Positions 25,194 through 34,180 of a DNA stretch of 64,000 nucleotides are shown one piece after another (the stretch's first letter is position 1; the number at the start of each line of letters is the position of its first letter). Below the pieces are notes generated by a model that was not told the DNA's origin, made no database searches, and worked only from the letters and a program-made list of their open reading frames with translations. This DNA comes from Marivivens donghaensis (GTDB taxonomy: Bacteria > Pseudomonadota > Alphaproteobacteria > Rhodobacterales > Rhodobacteraceae): NCBI RefSeq assembly GCF_023541015.1, contig NZ_JALNPR010000003.1, positions 186,001-250,000 on the forward strand, written 5' to 3'. The position numbers and the translations under genes are program-made.

Positions 25194-26198
25194 ATGGAAA
25201 AGCAGCTCATCGATCCCTTCGCACGCGCGATTAAATACCTTAGGGTGTCCGTTACAGACCGTTGCGATTTCCGCTGCGTCTATTGCATGTCCGAGAATAT
25301 GGAGTTTCTCCCCAAAAAGGACCTCCTGACGCTCGAAGAGTTGGATCGGCTGTGCAGCGCCTTTATCGGTCTTGGCGTCGAAAAGTTGCGGATTACGGGC
25401 GGCGAACCGCTCGTTCGGCGCGGGATCATAACATTTTTCAACGCTATGACGCGCCACCTCGACAGTGGCGCGCTCAAGGAACTGACGCTAACCACAAACG
25501 GCAGCCAGTTGGCGAAATACGCGGACGACCTCTATGCGGCAGGCGTCCGGCGCGTGAACGTATCGCTCGACACTCTCGACGATCAGAAATTCGCCGATAT
25601 CACCCGCTGGGGCCGCCTGCCCCAAGTGATCAAAGGGATTGATGCCGCGCAAAAAGCAGGGCTGCGCGTTAAAATCAACGCAGTTGCGCTGAAGGGCTTC
25701 AACGAGGACGAACTCTTTACTTTGCAGAGCTGGTGCGCCGAACGTGACATGGACCTTACCTTTATTGAGGTGATGCCGATGGGCGATATTGGGAACGAGG
25801 ATCGTCTGGGCCAATATTGGTCGCTCAATGATCTACGCAAGCAACTGGCCGAACGGTTTACGCTCACAGATCTGGCGGAACGATCAGGCGGGCCTGCGCG
25901 GTATATCCGCATCGAAGAAACAGGCCAAAAGATCGGCCTCATCACGCCGATGTCGCATAACTTCTGCGAAAGCTGTAACCGCGTACGGATCACTTGCACG
26001 GGCGAGATTTACACCTGTCTGGGGCAAGAAGGTCATTCCGACCTGCGCGAACCGCTCCGCGCGTCAAATGACGACGCTGTGCTAGAGGCCGCCATTCACC
26101 GCGCGATCGGTCTGAAACCCAAAGGCCACGACTTCGATTATTCGCGTCAGACGGTCGATGGCCGCGTCAGCCGCCATATGAGCCACACAGGCGGTTAA
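25194..26198 (+). CDS. moaA: GTP 3',8-cyclase (molybdenum cofactor synthesis)
   Basis: A radical-SAM enzyme of 334 residues that, with MoaC, converts GTP to cyclic pyranopterin monophosphate. The SAM cluster ligands are Cys24-x3-Cys28-x2-Cys31 in [12 protein letters not shown]; the second cluster ligands are in [20 protein letters not shown]; the C-terminal Gly-Gly (SHTGG) needed for activity is present. I start at the ATG at 25194, which gives the family-typical length; an ATG at 25170 has an AGGAG three bases upstream and is a real alternative. Its product is needed by the molybdenum hydroxylase IorB encoded further on. The 3' end overlaps the convergent phosphatase gene by four bases. Confidence 0.95.
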
Positions 26199-26869
26199 CG
26201 CGCCGTAAATTCGCGGTTCAGCGCGTCCTGATCGTAAACGGTCGTTACCCATTCGCGCAGGCCGATGCCCGTCGCGTCATGCGCTTTGCGATAGTTTTCG
26301 AAAAACAGGTCCAGCACGCCCGTTTTCGACCATTTGAAATGCAAATACTTGCTGCTTAGGTGTGCGCTGGCATCCTCGACCGACACGCCCAGCATCTCGG
26401 TCAGGTAAATCACAGCGGCAAGCCCCGTGCGGTCAGCACCCGATTTACAGTGGATCAGAACCGGCTTTTCCGCCGTTTCCATGACATCCATGAATCTAAC
26501 GATCTGATCGGGGTTCGGGGCGCTACGAGCGGACATGCCGATCGTGATGACCTTCATCCCATATTTTTCAGCCGCCTCAGCCGATAGAAGCGATGTTGGG
26601 ATATTCGCGCCGCCTCGAAGGTTAATCACCGTCTTAATACCCATATCCGCCATTTCGGCCATACGTTCAGGGCTAGGATGGTTAGACCGATAAACCCCTT
26701 CGGCGATCTGGTCGAAATTTGTCCAGCGCACGCGTAAGAACCCATGGTCAATCCACTTTGCATAATAGTGCGCGCGCTCGCGGTCTTCTGCGGTCACGAT
26801 GGGCTTTTCATAGGATTTATTGCGGGCTTTTTCCCAAGCCTTCGCCTTATTCCAGAGGTTCTTTAGCAT
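26195..26869 (-). CDS. dual-specificity/tyrosine phosphatase-like protein
   Basis: A 224-residue phosphatase. The Cys-x5-Arg loop is [14 protein letters not shown], with the general-acid region near [12 protein letters not shown]. The fold and N-terminal Lys/Trp-rich part ([20 protein letters not shown]) recall the DSP/PTP-like phosphatases found beside polysaccharide genes. I use the ATG at 26869 (AAGGG six bases upstream); the frame opens at 26899. It lies divergently upstream of neuB, so a link to envelope sugars is possible but unproven. Confidence 0.85.
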
Positions 26870-27003
26870 ACCCTGCCCTTTATCGATCGCTGGCATCATT
26901 TGGGCTATGGGGCCTCAGAATGCAACCTTTCATCCCCAGATTGCCGATTGCAGGGCGCCCCGTTCCCGATTAGGTCTAGAACAAATTCGTTTTGGAGTTA
27001 CAC

Positions 27004-28032
27004 ATGGAAATCGCTGGCCGCAAAATCGGACCTGACTACCCCCCTCTCGTCATCGCTGAAATCGGTATCAACCACGGCGGCGACCTGAACGTGGCCAAGG
27101 AAATGGTGCGCCTCGCTGCTTTGTCTGGCTGTGAGATGATCAAGCACCAGACCCATATCATCGAAGATGAGATGACCGATGAGGCAAAGTCGATCTTCCC
27201 CCCGAACGCGGACGTGTCGATCTGGCACGTGATGGAACGTTGCGCCCTGTCCAAAGACGAAGAGGCAGAGCTGAAACGCTATTCTGAAGAACTGGGGATG
27301 ATCTGGATTTCGACCCCGTTCAGCCGCGCTGCTGCCGACTTCCTAGAAGAACTCGACGTTGCCGCCTATAAGATTGGCTCTGGTGAGGCGGATAACCTCC
27401 CCCTCATTCGCCATATCGCGAAGAAGGGCAAACCTGTGATCATGTCGACAGGGATGCAAACCATCGACACGATCCGCGCCTCGGTTCAAATCCTCGAAGA
27501 TGCGGGCGTTGAGTACGCTCTTCTCGAATGCACAAACCTCTACCCGTCGCCTGCCGAAATCGTTTCGCTGCGTGGCGTTACCGACCTGAAAAACGCATTC
27601 CCGAATGCAGTCGTCGGTTTCTCTGACCACTCGATCGGGCCGGAAATGGCGCTGGCGTCGGTGGCTTTGGGTGCTAGCATCCTAGAACGCCACTACACCG
27701 ATACGCGCTATCGCAAAGGTCCAGATATCATCAACTCGATGGACCCGTCCGAACTGCGCCACATCATCGACCGCTCCAAAGAGATTTGGATCGCAGCGAA
27801 CAACCCGAAGCAACGCACCGAAGCCGAAGAGCCTGTTTATGCCTTCGCACGTGCCTCGGTCGTGGCAGATAAGGACCTTCCCGAAGGTCACGTCATCTCC
27901 GAAGCCGACATCTGGGCGCGTCGCCCTGGTTCCGGTGAAATCGCTGGCTACGAGTTTGATAAGGTCGTCGGCAAAACGCTGACTCGTGCAGTGACACGGA
28001 ACACCCAGCTAAAGTGGAGCGATTTGCGTTAG
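27004..28032 (+). CDS. neuB: N-acetylneuraminate synthase-family protein (NeuB)
   Basis: A 342-residue nonulosonic acid synthase that condenses phosphoenolpyruvate with an N-acyl-mannosamine-type sugar. The TIM-barrel part has VIAEIGINHGGDLNVAKEM, DVAAYKIGSGEADNLPLI, IMSTGMQTIDTI and VGFSDHSIG; the C-terminal SAF (antifreeze-like) domain is about residues 285-342. GGAG lies six bases before the ATG at 27004. The product could be sialic, legionaminic or pseudaminic acid; family membership alone does not decide. NeuC follows after 34 bases. Confidence 0.93.
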   Translation: MEIAGRKIGPDYPPLVIAEIGINHGGDLNVAKEMVRLAALSGCEMIKHQTHIIEDEMTDEAKSIFPPNADVSIWHVMERCALSKDEEAELKRYSEELGMIWISTPFSRAAADFLEELDVAAYKIGSGEADNLPLIRHIAKKGKPVIMSTGMQTIDTIRASVQILEDAGVEYALLECTNLYPSPAEIVSLRGVTDLKNAFPNAVVGFSDHSIGPEMALASVALGASILERHYTDTRYRKGPDIINSMDPSELRHIIDRSKEIWIAANNPKQRTEAEEPVYAFARASVVADKDLPEGHVISEADIWARRPGSGEIAGYEFDKVVGKTLTRAVTRNTQLKWSDLR

Positions 28033-28066: not shown

Positions 28067-29188
28067 ATGACCCGTTCCATTCTCTTCGTCACTGGCACTC
28101 GTGCCGATTTTGGCAAGCTAGAGCCACTTGCGATTGCGTGCCGCGACGCGGGCTTTGATGTGTCGTTTTTTGTGACGGGCATGCATATGCTCGAACAATA
28201 CGGCATGACAAAGATTGAGGTTCATCGTGTCCCCGGCGTTCAGGTGCACGAGTTCCTGAACCAACGGGCGGGCGATCCGCAGGATATGATCCTTGCGAAA
28301 ACTGTGATCGGGTTTTCTGACTTCTGTATGGAGCACAAACCCGACCTCGTCGTGATCCACGGCGATCGGATCGAAGCGCTCGCTTGTGCGCTGGTCTGCG
28401 CCACCAACTACATCCGTTCGGCGCATATCGAGGGCGGTGAAGTGTCGGGCACGATTGACGAGGTGTTCCGTCACTGTAACTCCAAACTCGCGAGCCACCA
28501 TTTCGTGTCCTCGCAGGATGCAGGCCGCCGAGTTATGGCGCTGGGTGAACCCGAAGGGGCGATCCATGTGATCGGCTCACCTGAGTTGGATTTCCATTCC
28601 CAACCGTCGGGCGTGACGATTGACGACGTGAAAGCGCGCTATGCCATCCCGTTTGACGACTTTGGCATCGTGGTTTTCCATCCCGTCACCTCTGAGGCTG
28701 AGACGATGGGCGATCAGGCCGCGTCGCTGTATGCGGAACTGGTAGCCTCTGGGAAATCCTACGTCGTGATCGCACCGAACAACGATCCCGGAACGGATGG
28801 TATTCTGGCTGCAATGGACACCCTGCCAAAGGATCGGTTCCGCATTCTGCCCTCCATGCGCTTTGCCCATTTCTCGGAACTGATGCGCAATGCCTCGGCG
28901 ATGATCGGCAACAGCAGCGCGGGCGTGCGCGAGGCTCCGTTTATCGGGATCCCGTCTTTGGACGTCGGCACCCGACAAACGAACCGCGCACAGGCCAAAA
29001 GCATCCGCCACGTCTCTGCCTATGACCGCGCCGCGATTGCAGAGTTCCTCGCCTCGAACTGGGGCAATCGCTATGACCGCCATGCGGCCTTTGGCGAAGG
29101 CAGCGCGGCAGAGCGTTTCATGACGATCCTCGGGAAAGAGAGTTTCTGGTCAGGGTCCTTGCAAAAAGCGTTTACGGACAGTGAGTAA
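28067..29188 (+). CDS. neuC: UDP-N-acetylglucosamine 2-epimerase, hydrolysing (NeuC)
   Basis: A 373-residue GT-B fold epimerase that turns UDP-GlcNAc (or a di-N-acyl derivative) into the free mannosamine-type sugar used by NeuB. Motifs: FVTGTRADFGKLEPL, VVIHGDRIEALACALVC, AHIEGGEVSGTIDEVFRH and GNSSAGVREAPFIGIPS. Its end overlaps the next gene by eight bases. Together with neuB and the CMP-sugar synthase at 32496-33203 it gives three steps of a nonulosonate pathway. Confidence 0.93.
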   Translation: MTRSILFVTGTRADFGKLEPLAIACRDAGFDVSFFVTGMHMLEQYGMTKIEVHRVPGVQVHEFLNQRAGDPQDMILAKTVIGFSDFCMEHKPDLVVIHGDRIEALACALVCATNYIRSAHIEGGEVSGTIDEVFRHCNSKLASHHFVSSQDAGRRVMALGEPEGAIHVIGSPELDFHSQPSGVTIDDVKARYAIPFDDFGIVVFHPVTSEAETMGDQAASLYAELVASGKSYVVIAPNNDPGTDGILAAMDTLPKDRFRILPSMRFAHFSELMRNASAMIGNSSAGVREAPFIGIPSLDVGTRQTNRAQAKSIRHVSAYDRAAIAEFLASNWGNRYDRHAAFGEGSAAERFMTILGKESFWSGSLQKAFTDSE

Positions 29189-30422
29189 GCCGCCGTTTTC
29201 CCTGCGTCTTTTGATGATTGCGACGGGGGTGATCGAACCCATTGCGCCGATCATCCTCAAACGCAGGCTCAAACGCGGCAAAGAACACCCGACGCGCTGG
29301 CGTGAAAAGCTCGGCTACCCAAGCGCCCACCGCCCCAACGGGCCACTCATTTGGATGCACGGCGTTGGCGTGGGCGAGGTTATGGCCCTGCGCGGGTTGA
29401 TCCTCATGATGCGCGAGATGCGGTCAGACCTGCAGTTTTTGGTGACCTCGACCGCGCTCAATTCGGCCACAGCATGGGATCGCAACTCGATTGACGGCGC
29501 GGTCCATCAGTTTCTCCCCATTGATCTACCTAATGCTATGGATCGGTTCCTCGACCACTGGAAACCTGACCTTGCGATCTGGGCCGAACAAGACCTCTGG
29601 CCTGCGATGGTCTGGCGGGTGGCGGAACGTGGGATTGGGCAAGCCATCGTCAACGCTCGTCTTAACAACGATGCGTTTGAGAAAAGGGCCAAGGCCGCTG
29701 AGGTTTACGGCGCGGCGCTCTCTCGGATCGCGATCATCGATGCCCAAGATGATGAAACTGCCACGAACTTGACCAAACTTGGCGGTCGCGATGTGACGGT
29801 TTCGGGATCGCTCAAACCGATTGCCCCGCCTTTATCTGATTGGCCTGTAAAACGCGCTGCGATTGAACGAGGCCTGAACGGGCGGTCACTATGGCTCTGC
29901 GCGTCGAGCCACCCTGCGGACGAAGCGATTGCGCTCGATGCTCAAACCCAACGAACGGGTAGCCTCTTGGTGATTGCCCCGCGTCGCCCAAAGCGCACCG
30001 ACGACATCGTCGCGGCGGCGACAGAACGCGGGCTAAAGGTGGCCATAGGCGCGGATAGCGCATCACTGCGGGATGCAGATGTCATCATCGACAACAGCTT
30101 TGGACAAATGGGGCTCTGGTATCGGATGGCAGAGTTCGCGCTGATCGGTGGCACCTTCTGCGACATTGAGGGCCATAACCCGTGGGAAGCCGTCAACCTG
30201 AATTGCCCCGTTCTGCACGGTCCACGCACCGCGAATTTCGCATTTGACTACAGAATGCTCGACGGTGTCGGTGGCGCCCTAGCCATCAACGGGTCGACAG
30301 ATATCGTCGCCTTGGACCCCGCAACACTCTCTGCGCAAACACGTGCCGCAACGACATTGATTGCCGCAGAGCGGGATCGAAAACTTGATCTGGCGGCCCG
30401 TCTCGTTTCGTTGATAAACTAA
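29181..30422 (+). CDS. Kdo-transferase (WaaA/KdtA) paralogue 1
   Basis: A 413-residue GT-B glycosyltransferase of the WaaA family (GT30-like), which moves Kdo from CMP-Kdo to lipid A precursor. WaaA marks are the Glu of HGVGVGEVMALR, AEQDLWPAMVW, SGSLKPIAPP, CASSHPADEAI, IAPRRPKR and GGTFCDIEGHNPWEAVNL. It starts with a GTG inside the end of neuC (eight-base overlap) and is four bases from the second WaaA gene. Being coupled to neuB and neuC, it might use a different CMP-nonulosonate; this is inference. A signal-anchor-like hydrophobic segment is near residues 8-26. Confidence 0.85.
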   Translation: MSKPPFSLRLLMIATGVIEPIAPIILKRRLKRGKEHPTRWREKLGYPSAHRPNGPLIWMHGVGVGEVMALRGLILMMREMRSDLQFLVTSTALNSATAWDRNSIDGAVHQFLPIDLPNAMDRFLDHWKPDLAIWAEQDLWPAMVWRVAERGIGQAIVNARLNNDAFEKRAKAAEVYGAALSRIAIIDAQDDETATNLTKLGGRDVTVSGSLKPIAPPLSDWPVKRAAIERGLNGRSLWLCASSHPADEAIALDAQTQRTGSLLVIAPRRPKRTDDIVAAATERGLKVAIGADSASLRDADVIIDNSFGQMGLWYRMAEFALIGGTFCDIEGHNPWEAVNLNCPVLHGPRTANFAFDYRMLDGVGGALAINGSTDIVALDPATLSAQTRAATTLIAAERDRKLDLAARLVSLIN

Positions 30423-30426
30423 CGCA

Positions 30427-31725
30427 ATGATTGCACAGTTCCCCACTCCACGATTACGCCGCTGGCTTTCGCTCTACAAGGCGGCTTGGATTATCGGATT
30501 TCCGCTGATCCTGATTTACCTGTGGCGTCGCGGACAGAAGGATGCACTTTATTTGCAGCACCTTAAGGAACGCTTTGGAACGCACAAACCGATGCCGAAA
30601 TCGGTCTGGATCCATGCGGTTTCACTGGGCGAAATGCGCAGCGCGGTTCCTCTGGTTCGGGCGTTTCTCGACCGTGGAGAAACGGTTGTCACCACCCACT
30701 TCACCCCCACAGGGCGCCGTGAGGCCGAGCGTGTCTTTGCCGATGAGATCGCCGCTGGGCGACTTCGCGCGGTTTGGGTGCCGTTCGAATTCCGCTGGAC
30801 CTATGCCAAGTTCTTTCGCGCTTTCACCCCGAAATACGGGCTGGTGATGGAGGTCGAGATTTGGCCCGCGATGATCACCGAATGTCGTCGCAAAGGCGTG
30901 CCGCTCTTTATGTGCAACGCGCAATACCCGTCCAAGAGCTATGAGCGCGATCAAACCAAAACCCCTGCCCGCGCCGACCTGATGCGCGGCTTTGCGGGTG
31001 CTCTGGTGAAATCCGCCCTTCAACGGGATCGTTTCGCGAGCGTTGGCGTCACCAACATCGCCATCACGGGGGAAACACGGTTCGAACAACCGATCCCTGC
31101 TGAGCTGCCCGTCGCTGGTGTCGCAGCGCGCGCATGGATGGCTCCTGATCGCCCCGTGATCACCATCGCTAGCGCCGTCGAGGGCGAAGACGAGGTGTAT
31201 ATCGACGCGATTAAGGCGACACGCGGCGAGAATGCTCCGCTCTTTGTCTACGTGCCGCGCAAGCCTGAACGCTTTGCCGAAGTCGCAACGATGCTCCGTG
31301 ATGCGGGACTTTACGTGGTGAACCGCACGGCCTGTTTCGACGCGTTTCTGCAAGGCCGGGGCAACGCGCCACAGGTCGATGTCCTCTTGGGCGACAGCAT
31401 TGGCGAGATGTATTTCTACCTCGCCATGGCGGATAAGGTCATTGTTGGCGGTGGCTTTACCCCTTACGGCGCACATAACGTCATCGAACCGCTGGCGATG
31501 AAGAAACCAGTGATTGTCGGGCCAGATATCCACACCATCGAATACCCCGCTGTTGAGGCAATTACCGCAGGCGTTTGCACCCACGTTCAGTCAACAGCCG
31601 AGTTGATAAACGCAATCGGGGCCGACCCGCAGGCCGACCCCGATCAGATTGACGCGTTCTTTACCGAACACACGGGCGCCGTTCAAAAAACGCTCGCAGC
31701 GATTGACGTGTTTACCACGCGCTAA
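30427..31725 (+). CDS. Kdo-transferase (WaaA/KdtA) paralogue 2
   Basis: A 432-residue WaaA-like protein. It has an N-terminal hydrophobic anchor (about 19-33), IHAVSLGEMRSAVPLVRAF with the catalytic Glu, MEVEIWPAMITEC, TGETRFEQP, IASAVEGEDEVY, YVPRKPERF and VGGGFTPYGAHNVIEPLAMK. So both paralogues keep the residues expected for CMP-sugar transfer. Which one is the lipid A Kdo transferase and which has another role cannot be settled from sequence alone; each differs from the canonical motifs at some sites. The 3' end overlaps the convergent SDR gene by 14 bases. Confidence 0.85.
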   Translation: MIAQFPTPRLRRWLSLYKAAWIIGFPLILIYLWRRGQKDALYLQHLKERFGTHKPMPKSVWIHAVSLGEMRSAVPLVRAFLDRGETVVTTHFTPTGRREAERVFADEIAAGRLRAVWVPFEFRWTYAKFFRAFTPKYGLVMEVEIWPAMITECRRKGVPLFMCNAQYPSKSYERDQTKTPARADLMRGFAGALVKSALQRDRFASVGVTNIAITGETRFEQPIPAELPVAGVAARAWMAPDRPVITIASAVEGEDEVYIDAIKATRGENAPLFVYVPRKPERFAEVATMLRDAGLYVVNRTACFDAFLQGRGNAPQVDVLLGDSIGEMYFYLAMADKVIVGGGFTPYGAHNVIEPLAMKKPVIVGPDIHTIEYPAVEAITAGVCTHVQSTAELINAIGADPQADPDQIDAFFTEHTGAVQKTLAAIDVFTTR

Positions 31726-32503
31726 AGCCACCATCGACGTTGACCAACTGGCCTGTCATGTAGCCCGACTGCGGGCTGGCAAGGAACAACATCACGTCCG
31801 CGATTTCATCGGGCTCGCACATGCGGCCCGCCATGATCAATTCGCCCACGCGGCGTTGGAATTCTTCGGAGTGGTTGTTGAACACAGCCCCCGGCGCAAT
31901 GGTGTTCACCGTCGCCTTGCGCGGTGCCCAGTAGCCAGCCAGCCAAACGGTCAGGCCGTGAATACCCGCTTTGGTCACGCCATAGGCCGAGAAGTTCTTG
32001 AACGGCATGCCGTCATAAATCGGGTGGTGTGCGCCGTTCAGCGCATACATCGACGCAACGTTGATCAGCGTGCAGTGCCATTTGCCGACAATGTCGCGAT
32101 CCATCTGACGCGCAATCATAAACGCGCCCGTTAGGTTCGTGCGCAGGGTGCGTTCGAAATCTTCGACACTGGTGTCCGCGAAGTCAGGGAACGGTTTGCC
32201 CGCGCCCATCAACAACTCGCCCGTGATCGCCGCGTTGTTCAGAACGACGTTCGGTTCCCAGCCATCGGCCAGAATGCGTTTGAAAATCTCGGAACAGCCA
32301 TCCTCATCGCCAACGTCTAGGTCATAGAAACGGAAGTTCTCGTTCGAGCCGTGCTTTTCAACCAGCGCATCCGCGCGGTGGCCTTTGAGGTCAGAGGCGA
32401 TGACACGCGCGCCTTCATCAAGCATCCGCCGCACATAGGTCGAGCCCAGAACACCGCCAGAGCCTGTAATGAAAACCGTGCGGCCTTTGAGTTGATCAGC
32501 CAT
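31712..32503 (-). CDS. SDR-family oxidoreductase
   Basis: A 263-residue short-chain dehydrogenase. The cofactor loop is TGSGGVLGS, followed by Asp-based selectivity (IASDLKGH, suggesting NAD), LNNAAIT, and the catalytic Ser in NVASMYALNG with Tyr-x3-Lys in SAYGVTKAG. The substrate is unknown but its place after neuA and a Gfo/Idh gene suggests a sugar. It overlaps neuA by eight bases and converges with the second WaaA gene. Confidence 0.9.
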   Translation of the reverse strand: MADQLKGRTVFITGSGGVLGSTYVRRMLDEGARVIASDLKGHRADALVEKHGSNENFRFYDLDVGDEDGCSEIFKRILADGWEPNVVLNNAAITGELLMGAGKPFPDFADTSVEDFERTLRTNLTGAFMIARQMDRDIVGKWHCTLINVASMYALNGAHHPIYDGMPFKNFSAYGVTKAGIHGLTVWLAGYWAPRKATVNTIAPGAVFNNHSEEFQRRVGELIMAGRMCEPDEIADVMLFLASPQSGYMTGQLVNVDGGFSAW

Positions 32504-33203
32504 TGGATGCCTCTTTCAGTCGGTCATTAAGTAGGAATTCTACGAGTTTGAAATCAAACGGACTATCGATGTCGACGCAACGATCTGCATCCATCAAATA
32601 GGGAATAACGCGCCCCTCGTAGAGCGATTTCGTAGTCTTTAGGTAATCTGGTTTGACCACATATGTGCTTGCCGCGTGTTCATAGACGGTCGGCGCCGCC
32701 TGACGCGCTACGACACCACCGGGGAGAGGTTTCGACACATGCAGTGCACCCGTTTCATCGGGTTCCACAAGGTTGAAATAGGGGTTCTTGCGTGCCTCAC
32801 AGCAGGACATGACCATATCGGGGTGCTCTGCATGATAGAGCGCCAGCGCGTCTGTGATGTCCGACGGCAACCGCAAAGGCGAGGTCGCATCGAGATCCAG
32901 AAACGCATCGACCTTGCCGATCAGTGCCTCGGACGCCTCAAGCGCATGCTGCCACACGCCCCATTTACCAGCCGCATCCGTGGCGAGGTGATCAGGACGC
33001 AACCCAATCGCCAGTGTGCCCTTGGCAACGGCGTGTTCGTAAATCTCTTCATCATCGGTCGAGACAACAACTGCATCGACCTGCGGATGTTCGAGCAATT
33101 GTTCCAGCGACCAGTCGATCAGGGGCTTACCGCAGATCGGTTTGAAGTTCTTACGCGGAACCCCCTTAGAGCCCTTGCGGACGCCGATATGACCCAAAAT
33201 CAT
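32496..33203 (-). CDS. neuA: acylneuraminate cytidylyltransferase-family protein (NeuA type)
   Basis: A 235-residue CMP-sugar synthetase that activates a nonulosonic acid with CTP. Motifs: VRKGSKGVPRKNFKPICGKP near the N-terminus (the nucleotide loop), FLDLDATSPLR, and the acidic DADRCVDIDSPFDF near the C-terminus that binds metal. I start at the ATG at 33203, with AAGGAG five bases upstream; the frame opens at 33248. Its start overlaps the stop of the oxidoreductase gene (ATGA). It is transcribed opposite to neuB and neuC. Confidence 0.9.
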   Translation of the reverse strand: MILGHIGVRKGSKGVPRKNFKPICGKPLIDWSLEQLLEHPQVDAVVVSTDDEEIYEHAVAKGTLAIGLRPDHLATDAAGKWGVWQHALEASEALIGKVDAFLDLDATSPLRLPSDITDALALYHAEHPDMVMSCCEARKNPYFNLVEPDETGALHVSKPLPGGVVARQAAPTVYEHAASTYVVKPDYLKTTKSLYEGRVIPYLMDADRCVDIDSPFDFKLVEFLLNDRLKEASNG

Positions 33204-34123
33204 GGGATCTCCTTTGTGATGTGCCCAATGAACTGCCGTGCTTCCCAAGCGGCGGCGGTGAGCGCTGTACTGGCGGTCACGCGGTCAATGCGTGGCAGCA
33301 GTCGGTTTGTGGTTTCGCGCCCCTCAAGGAGCGCAATCCAGTCGCGTGTGATCCCCACGAACATCTCGTTCCGTTCGAGCGGCAGATCAATTAGGCGGGC
33401 ACCGGTGGCGTCTTTGACTTCGTAGCGTTGAGCCGCAAAATCGAAATCGTAGATCGCATCGACGCCATAGACGATCGTTCGACGGTGAAGCTGGGGGGTC
33501 AGATAATCCATCCCAATCGACCCTTCGGCCCCCGCCCGCGTTTGCACGGTCAGTCGCGATGAAAAATCAACGCCATCGTAATTTGGATGACCAACGGATG
33601 TGACCGATTTGAGCGTAAGGTCGGGGAACAGAACCGAGGCCATGTCGATCTCGTGGCAGAGGTCCAGCAGCACACCGCCGCCGTCAGCCTTCGCCGCATA
33701 GCTTTCCGAGAATTTCCAGTTTTGCCGCCATTGCGTGACGTCATGCCCGATATCGAGGCTAAAACGCACCGCGCTCGACATATCCAGATCAGCCAAAGCG
33801 CGGAACGCAGGGTGATAACGCATCATCAAACCGAGCATGGTGCGATCTGCGACTTTTGCCGTCAGGCGATCAATCTCTGCCAAGTCAGCCGCCCGAAAGG
33901 CGAGCGGTTTTTCGATATACATCGGAAGGTCGCGATCCGCCGCATCCGCAATCGGACCCGTACGAACGTCCGTCGCGGTCGCAATCACAGCAGCGTCGCA
34001 GCCATCCAAAACGTCAGGGCGATAGCTGCGATATGGCACCTGAACAGCGTCGATGCCGAGAGAAACAAGGTTATCAAAATGGCGCCGACCAATTGAACCA
34101 GCGCCGATCACCGCAATCCGCAT
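33200..34123 (-). CDS. Gfo/Idh/MocA-family oxidoreductase
   Basis: A 307-residue NAD(P)-dependent sugar oxidoreductase. The N-terminal Rossmann fold begins MRIAVIGAGSIGRRHFDN and the EKP motif is in YIEKPLAFRA; the C-terminal half has the usual GGGVLLDLCHEIDMA (the conserved His). GGAGG stands four bases before the ATG at 34123. First gene of the minus-strand unit Gfo/Idh-neuA-SDR. In legionaminic or related pathways such enzymes tailor the nucleotide or free sugar; here the role is open. Confidence 0.9.
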   Translation of the reverse strand: MRIAVIGAGSIGRRHFDNLVSLGIDAVQVPYRSYRPDVLDGCDAAVIATATDVRTGPIADAADRDLPMYIEKPLAFRAADLAEIDRLTAKVADRTMLGLMMRYHPAFRALADLDMSSAVRFSLDIGHDVTQWRQNWKFSESYAAKADGGGVLLDLCHEIDMASVLFPDLTLKSVTSVGHPNYDGVDFSSRLTVQTRAGAEGSIGMDYLTPQLHRRTIVYGVDAIYDFDFAAQRYEVKDATGARLIDLPLERNEMFVGITRDWIALLEGRETTNRLLPRIDRVTASTALTAAAWEARQFIGHITKEIP

Positions 34124-34180
34124 GTGACCTCCCAATACTTTGTTCTGGAATGGCACATGCGGCGCGTTTCTGCAACGGGA

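Follow-up and report, generated by a model that had tools for sequence, protein, structure and literature searches.

WaaA is usually essential. In Shewanella, the Kdo8N pathway comprises KdnA and a CMP-synthetase. The odd LOS structure of Loktanella rosea, now named Yoonia rosea, was reportedly described in 2010 under the title 'Against the rules'. A review gives the core of this LOS as α-Neu-(2->8)[α-Kdo-(2->4)]-α-Kdo (PMC3210612), and the LPS of Rhodobacter capsulatus has been reported to contain Neu5Ac (PMC9631793). A 2022 paper counts seven families of inverting sialyltransferases, with GT30 as the single family of inverting Kdo enzymes (PMC9587256). Our literature search, for which subscription journals were mostly out of reach, returned no report of a nonulosonate-transferring GT30. 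Here we describe a locus in which two divergent GT30 genes lie within a nonulosonate gene cluster.

Two GT30 genes beside neuB, neuC and neuA

The window is a 64,000-nucleotide stretch of the Marivivens donghaensis genome (GCF_023541015.1, contig NZ_JALNPR010000003.1, positions 186,001 to 250,000). Numbered from its first nucleotide, the locus contains the following genes:

26195..26899, minus strand: DSP/PTP-like phosphatase (PF22741/PF00782)
27004..28032, plus strand: neuB-type nonulosonate synthase (PF03102, 2.6e-67)
28067..29188, plus strand: neuC, hydrolysing UDP-GlcNAc 2-epimerase (TIGR03568, 348.8 bits, above the cut-off of 235.9)
29181..30422, plus strand: GT30a (WaaA paralogue 1), proposed nonulosonate transferase (PF04413, 152 bits)
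30427..31725, plus strand: GT30b (WaaA paralogue 2), proposed to transfer Kdo to lipid A (PF04413, 147 bits)
31712..32503, minus strand: SDR oxidoreductase (PF13561; conserved with the locus)
32496..33248, minus strand: neuA-type CMP-nonulosonate synthetase (PF02348; likely ATG start at 33203)
33200..34156, minus strand: Gfo/Idh/MocA-type oxidoreductase (PF22725/PF01408; syntenic in relatives)

The neuB, neuC, GT30a and GT30b genes are ordered head to tail, and the SDR, neuA and Gfo/Idh genes converge on them from the opposite strand, neuA lying between the other two. The original prediction of two full-length WaaA-like genes in tandem was correct in that both encode full-length PF04413 proteins. 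GT30a (413 aa) has a GTG start and, as had been predicted, is coupled to neuC by an overlap of exactly 8 bases (29181-29188), while GT30b (432 aa) starts 4 bases past the GT30a stop. Profile searches also located the neuB, neuC and neuA-type genes expected nearby, and the best PDB match of NeuA was the CMP-N-acetylneuraminate synthetase 6ifd (4.6e-24). The neuB sequence favours the ATG at 27004 over the TTG at 26992 as the start codon. Against the curated N-acetylneuraminate synthase model TIGR03569, NeuB scored 344.6 bits, below the cut-off of 399.65, and the exact sugar made by the neu genes is uncertain. The only CTP_transf_3 genes found in the host genome were neuA and kdsB, a number that matches the two intact GT30 enzymes. 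The SDR protein is 92-97% identical in three congeners, and in relatives the phosphatase gene repeatedly lies next to waaA or to neuB/neuA.

GT30a and GT30b as members of the GT30 family

Both paralogues scored well above the PF04413 cut-off of 23.9 bits. Their best NCBIfam matches were curated WaaA equivalog models, at scores below the cut-offs of those models (GT30a, 257 bits at best against a cut-off of 617; GT30b, 337 against 524). Since neither passes, we claim GT30 family membership for the pair and do not call them WaaA equivalogs. The AlphaFold models are confident (pLDDT 93.4 for GT30a and 92.6 for GT30b) and include an N-terminal helix at residues 6-31 and 8-38, respectively. The top PDB match in a fold search with GT30b was WaaA (2xci, 3.0e-20), the fold of which includes an N-terminal membrane helix.

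To compare active sites, we used the numbering of Aquifex WaaA from crystal-structure work (reviewed in PMC6286764). Ser28 has been proposed to help in binding the 1-phosphate of the lipid, and the sugar acid to be positioned by Glu98 and Lys162. The host GT30a keeps Gly30, Glu31, Glu98, Lys162 and Arg212, and the host GT30b keeps all of these except Lys162, which is replaced by Arg. Throughout the GT30a clade, Gly30, Glu31, Lys162 and Arg212 are invariant (22/22), Glu98 is present in 21 of 22 members and Gly replaces Ser28 in every one (22/22). The GT30b clade retains Ser28, Gly30, Glu31, Glu98 and Arg212 in 31/31 members, has Arg for Lys162 in 30/31, and carries fixed changes at positions conserved elsewhere. 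Both paralogues are apparently intact, working enzymes. It had been predicted that they keep the catalytic motifs and yet differ from each other, and both points held: the active sites are intact save for the Lys162 to Arg change in GT30b, and the two proteins fall into separate clades, with Ser28 to Gly as a further difference in GT30a.

A tree built from 111 GT30 proteins placed GT30b in a single clade (SH-aLRT 100) and GT30a in another (SH-aLRT 97), the latter nested among the ordinary WaaA proteins of the family. A third type, GT30c, encoded beside lpxK, also formed a single clade (SH-aLRT 99). Profile scores sorted the remaining copies cleanly into GT30a, GT30b and ordinary WaaA. Between congeners, GT30b is 75% identical compared to 55% for GT30a, and is therefore the slower-evolving of the two.

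The GT30 gene beside lpxK is degenerate

The host genome has three PF04413 genes. As a check on the original prediction, a third waaA had been proposed to be sought near lpxK; a third GT30 gene, GT30c, does lie directly upstream of lpxK, but not as a working copy, having lost the catalytic glutamates. It scored only 47 bits against PF04413, has HCRNTADADH in place of the WaaA H..S.GE motif, and carries Gly at Glu98. Catalytic residues are lost in nearly all members of the GT30c clade across the family. In one congener (G005), GT30c is the sole GT30 and a search for KdsA gave no match. GT30c probably does not use Kdo, and we rejected it as a functional WaaA, which leaves GT30a, GT30b or both as the working enzyme. 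The position of GT30c upstream of lpxK would suit an explanation in which this copy is the real WaaA and the pair lies near the neu genes by accident. We consider this very improbable given the loss of the glutamates, the persistence of the clade in a congener with neither a KdsA match nor another GT30, and the recurrence of the neuC-GT30a-GT30b order in many genera, which argues that the arrangement is not due to chance.

The pair appears to replace ordinary WaaA

To determine how the pair is distributed, we surveyed 121 genomes of the family from about 120 genera, a sampling of approximately one genome per genus that limits but does not remove the effect of relatedness on the statistics. Ordinary WaaA was found in 94 genomes, GT30a together with GT30b in 15, GT30b only in one (Amylibacter) and neither in 11. 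None of the 121 had both the pair and ordinary WaaA, setting aside an extra long-branch GT30 that is accompanied by its own KdsB in genome G014. The chance of zero overlap for GT30b genomes was 3.6e-13, treating genomes as independent and ignoring relatedness. This mutual exclusion suggests that GT30a and GT30b have together replaced ordinary WaaA, which would indirectly implicate one of them in the transfer of Kdo to lipid A.

Within Yoonia, taken as the genus of Yoonia maricola, 36 of 41 genomes had two strong GT30s, which were GT30a and GT30b wherever classified; four had ordinary WaaA only and one had only a weak GT30c-like match. One Yoonia pair genome (G160) also has an ordinary waaA that is interrupted by one frameshift, which could be either decay or an assembly error. 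In the M. donghaensis congener G004, a single ordinary waaA occupies the equivalent chromosomal position (glmU-glmS-moaA-...-M20), flanked by moaA and the phosphatase gene, and there is no neu cluster. Adjacency of moaA and waaA is widespread (31/100 ordinary waaA loci). The simplest reading of the gene order is that the cluster occupies the former waaA site and that waaA is gone.

The pair is associated with nonulosonate genes

Within about 9 kb of GT30b, GT30a was present at 68 and neuC at 60 of the best 80 GT30b loci. NeuB turned up in each of the 15 pair genomes sampled, compared to 8 of 40 WaaA genomes, the eight being mostly PseI-like (Fisher 4e-8, counting any NeuB and ignoring relatedness); a Neu-type neuB adjoining neuC was observed in only one of these eight (G022). 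The neuB, neuC and neuA genes of one pair genome (G055) are only about 30% identical to those of M. donghaensis. R. capsulatus has the pair at one site and the full neuB/neuC/SDR/neuA/Gfo-Idh set away from it, and in some Shimia the pair is located away from neuBC. In two Shimia loci and in Amylibacter, neuC adjoins GT30b instead of GT30a. One GT30b-clade gene lies directly 3' of pseB-C-F-G-H-I, all six of which scored above curated cut-offs, and KdnA-like genes adjoin GT30b relatives at two further loci (L074 and L075).

The occurrence of the pair in R. capsulatus and in the genus of Y. rosea, both species with known sialic-type LPS, supports a mixed Kdo/nonulosonate core. The L. rosea core is like the product that we predict for M. 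donghaensis, having Neu on Kdo beside a second Kdo; it is a chemical structure, and its tie to the pair is drawn through the genus, since most sampled Yoonia species have the pair.

Proposed roles of the two paralogues

On these genomic grounds, we consider it likely that the paralogues divide Kdo and nonulosonate transfer between them, in one order or the other. NeuC and NeuB would make a sialic-type nonulosonate. NeuA would convert this to the CMP-activated form, and it may be modified by the SDR and Gfo/Idh enzymes. GT30b most likely uses CMP-Kdo to place Kdo on lipid A, and GT30a, which is co-translated with neuC, most likely adds the nonulosonate to the Kdo. The predicted product would resemble α-Neu-(2->8)-[α-Kdo-(2->4)]-α-Kdo-lipid A. 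We infer the enzyme activities, the linkage and the assignment of each paralogue to its step, and the statement as a whole, a mixed core with GT30b as Kdo transferase and GT30a as nonulosonate transferase, is in our judgement just on the probable side. The modified inner core of the original prediction, with one paralogue for Kdo and the other for a nonulosonate, is supported by the intactness of both paralogues, their apparent replacement of ordinary WaaA, their co-occurrence with nonulosonate genes and the fit with the LPS chemistry of relatives.

We initially read GT30b as the nonulosonate enzyme, given its divergent clade and the member lying 3' of the pse cluster. This reading was reversed because in Amylibacter and Aliiroseovarius, both of which have KdsA, no intact GT30 other than GT30b was found, and because GT30a keeps its place beside neuC in five genomes (G009, G044 and three from Yoonia) that have GT30b elsewhere. 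In such split genomes, GT30b lies among housekeeping genes. The first of these observations favours GT30b as the Kdo enzyme, as do its retention of Ser28 and its slower evolution. The tie of GT30a to neuC, its absence without GT30b from the genomes surveyed and the uniform loss of Ser28 favour GT30a as the nonulosonate enzyme. The two genera with GT30b as sole intact copy, the tie of GT30a to neuC and its absence without GT30b speak against swapped roles, in which GT30a would be the native WaaA still transferring Kdo and GT30b the nonulosonate transferase. We regard that arrangement as unlikely, even though GT30a is nested among native WaaA and keeps the Lys162 that GT30b has exchanged for Arg, fixed substitutions mark the GT30b clade at sites conserved elsewhere, and GT30b relatives adjoin Kdo8N-type genes and a complete pseudaminic acid cluster, as would fit a nonulosonate enzyme. 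Roles may also differ between lineages. Both GT30s might instead be Kdo transferases, for the first and the second Kdo, with the nonulosonate added by another transferase or to another glycan. Kdo transfer is the sole activity given for GT30 (PMC9587256), KdoT of Acinetobacter is a precedent for split Kdo transfer, and the separation of the pair from neuBC in R. capsulatus and some Shimia would be in keeping with this. However, the pair co-occurs with NeuB, GT30a overlaps neuC, and L. rosea carries Neu on Kdo. We also rejected a KdoT-type enzyme in pair genomes, as the KdoT-like family PF06258 (ELM1-like) was absent from all those searched and the control, Caulobacter, was positive. GT42 (PF06002) and GT52 (PF07922) were not found in pair genomes (0/36 genomes for each), in searches run without a positive control. 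Two Kdo transferases seem somewhat less plausible even than swapped roles, and we retain GT30b as the Kdo and GT30a as the nonulosonate enzyme.

Comparison with known systems

If one of the paralogues does transfer a nonulosonate, its branch of GT30 would be an eighth family beside the seven of sialyltransferases, arisen from an LPS core enzyme, and GT30 would no longer be confined to Kdo. A module that moves together with a sugar pathway would have taken over from WaaA. The pair also provides candidate genes for the L. rosea LOS and for the sialylation of LPS in R. capsulatus, an organism that is genetically tractable. More tentatively, and with some doubt on our part, GT30 may not be Kdo-only in general: Rhodobacterales copies may have been matched repeatedly to the CMP-ulosonate made by their neighbours, so that the inner-core acid would be exchangeable by module swaps. 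On this tentative reading, neuBCA would supply a Neu-type sugar, pseBCFGHI followed by a GT30b gene would supply pseudaminic acid, and a KdnA-like gene, grouped with a CMP-synthetase and a relative of GT30b, would supply a Kdo8N-like sugar; a further module would join a GT30 to a second KdsB.

Compared to the WaaA/KdtA enzymes of E. coli and Aquifex aeolicus, the pair shares the GT30 family, the fold, the N-terminal helix and Glu31, Glu98 and Arg212, and jointly holds the genomic place of WaaA. It differs in being duplicated and diverged within an operon for nonulosonate synthesis, with one copy proposed to use a CMP-nonulosonate, and in the replacement of Aquifex Ser28 by Gly in GT30a and of Lys162 by Arg in GT30b. 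The inverting sialyltransferases of GT29, 38, 42, 52, 80, 97 and 100 transfer a CMP-activated nonulosonate, as is proposed for one of the pair, but belong to different families. KdoT (ELM1-like) of Acinetobacter baumannii is also a second inner-core ulosonate transferase, from another protein family. The Shewanella Kdo8N pathway is a dedicated CMP-ulosonate route into the inner core, as is proposed for the M. donghaensis locus, which has neuBC instead.

GT30 homologues with other gene neighbours

The GT30 homologue that adjoins lpxK (GT30c) lacks the catalytic residues, is kept across the family, and lies at L007:8060-9265 in the genome of the window (G000:C6:192060-193265). It is possibly a non-catalytic partner for lipid A synthesis. 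A long-branch GT30 clade (L115:1654-3897 and L167:5028-7910) carries Asp in place of Glu31 (Aquifex WaaA numbering); at both loci it is flanked by genes for a HAD-type phosphatase and for a second KdsB-like protein. Relatives of GT30b, the second paralogue of the tandem pair, occur with other sugar-acid genes. At L129:3467-10341, a GT30b-clade gene immediately follows a complete pseB-C-F-G-H-I cluster. At L074:8278-12948, L075, L152 and L155, a GT30b relative is grouped with a KdnA-like aminotransferase, a CMP-sugar synthetase and a GMC oxidoreductase; this set may be a Kdo8N-type pathway that includes a dedicated transferase.

One further gene of the window recurs in relatives:
26195-26899, DSP/PTP-like phosphatase gene
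It is a repeated neighbour of ordinary waaA (L071, L313-L315) and of neuB/neuA in pair genomes; its substrate could be a lipid A or core phosphate.

Genomes with atypical Kdo genes

In G160 (Yoonia), which carries the GT30a-GT30b pair, the ordinary waaA is interrupted by one frameshift (L322:8651-9875). The near-complete genome of the congener G005 had no match to KdsA, and its sole GT30 is the degenerate GT30c adjoining lpxK (L072); its LPS may be without Kdo. Five KdsA-positive genomes (G053, G066, G092, G093 and G117) had no match to PF04413, the GT30/WaaA domain. In two of these, G053 and G092, the Kdo transferase may be the product of an ELM1/KdoT-type gene that both genomes carry.
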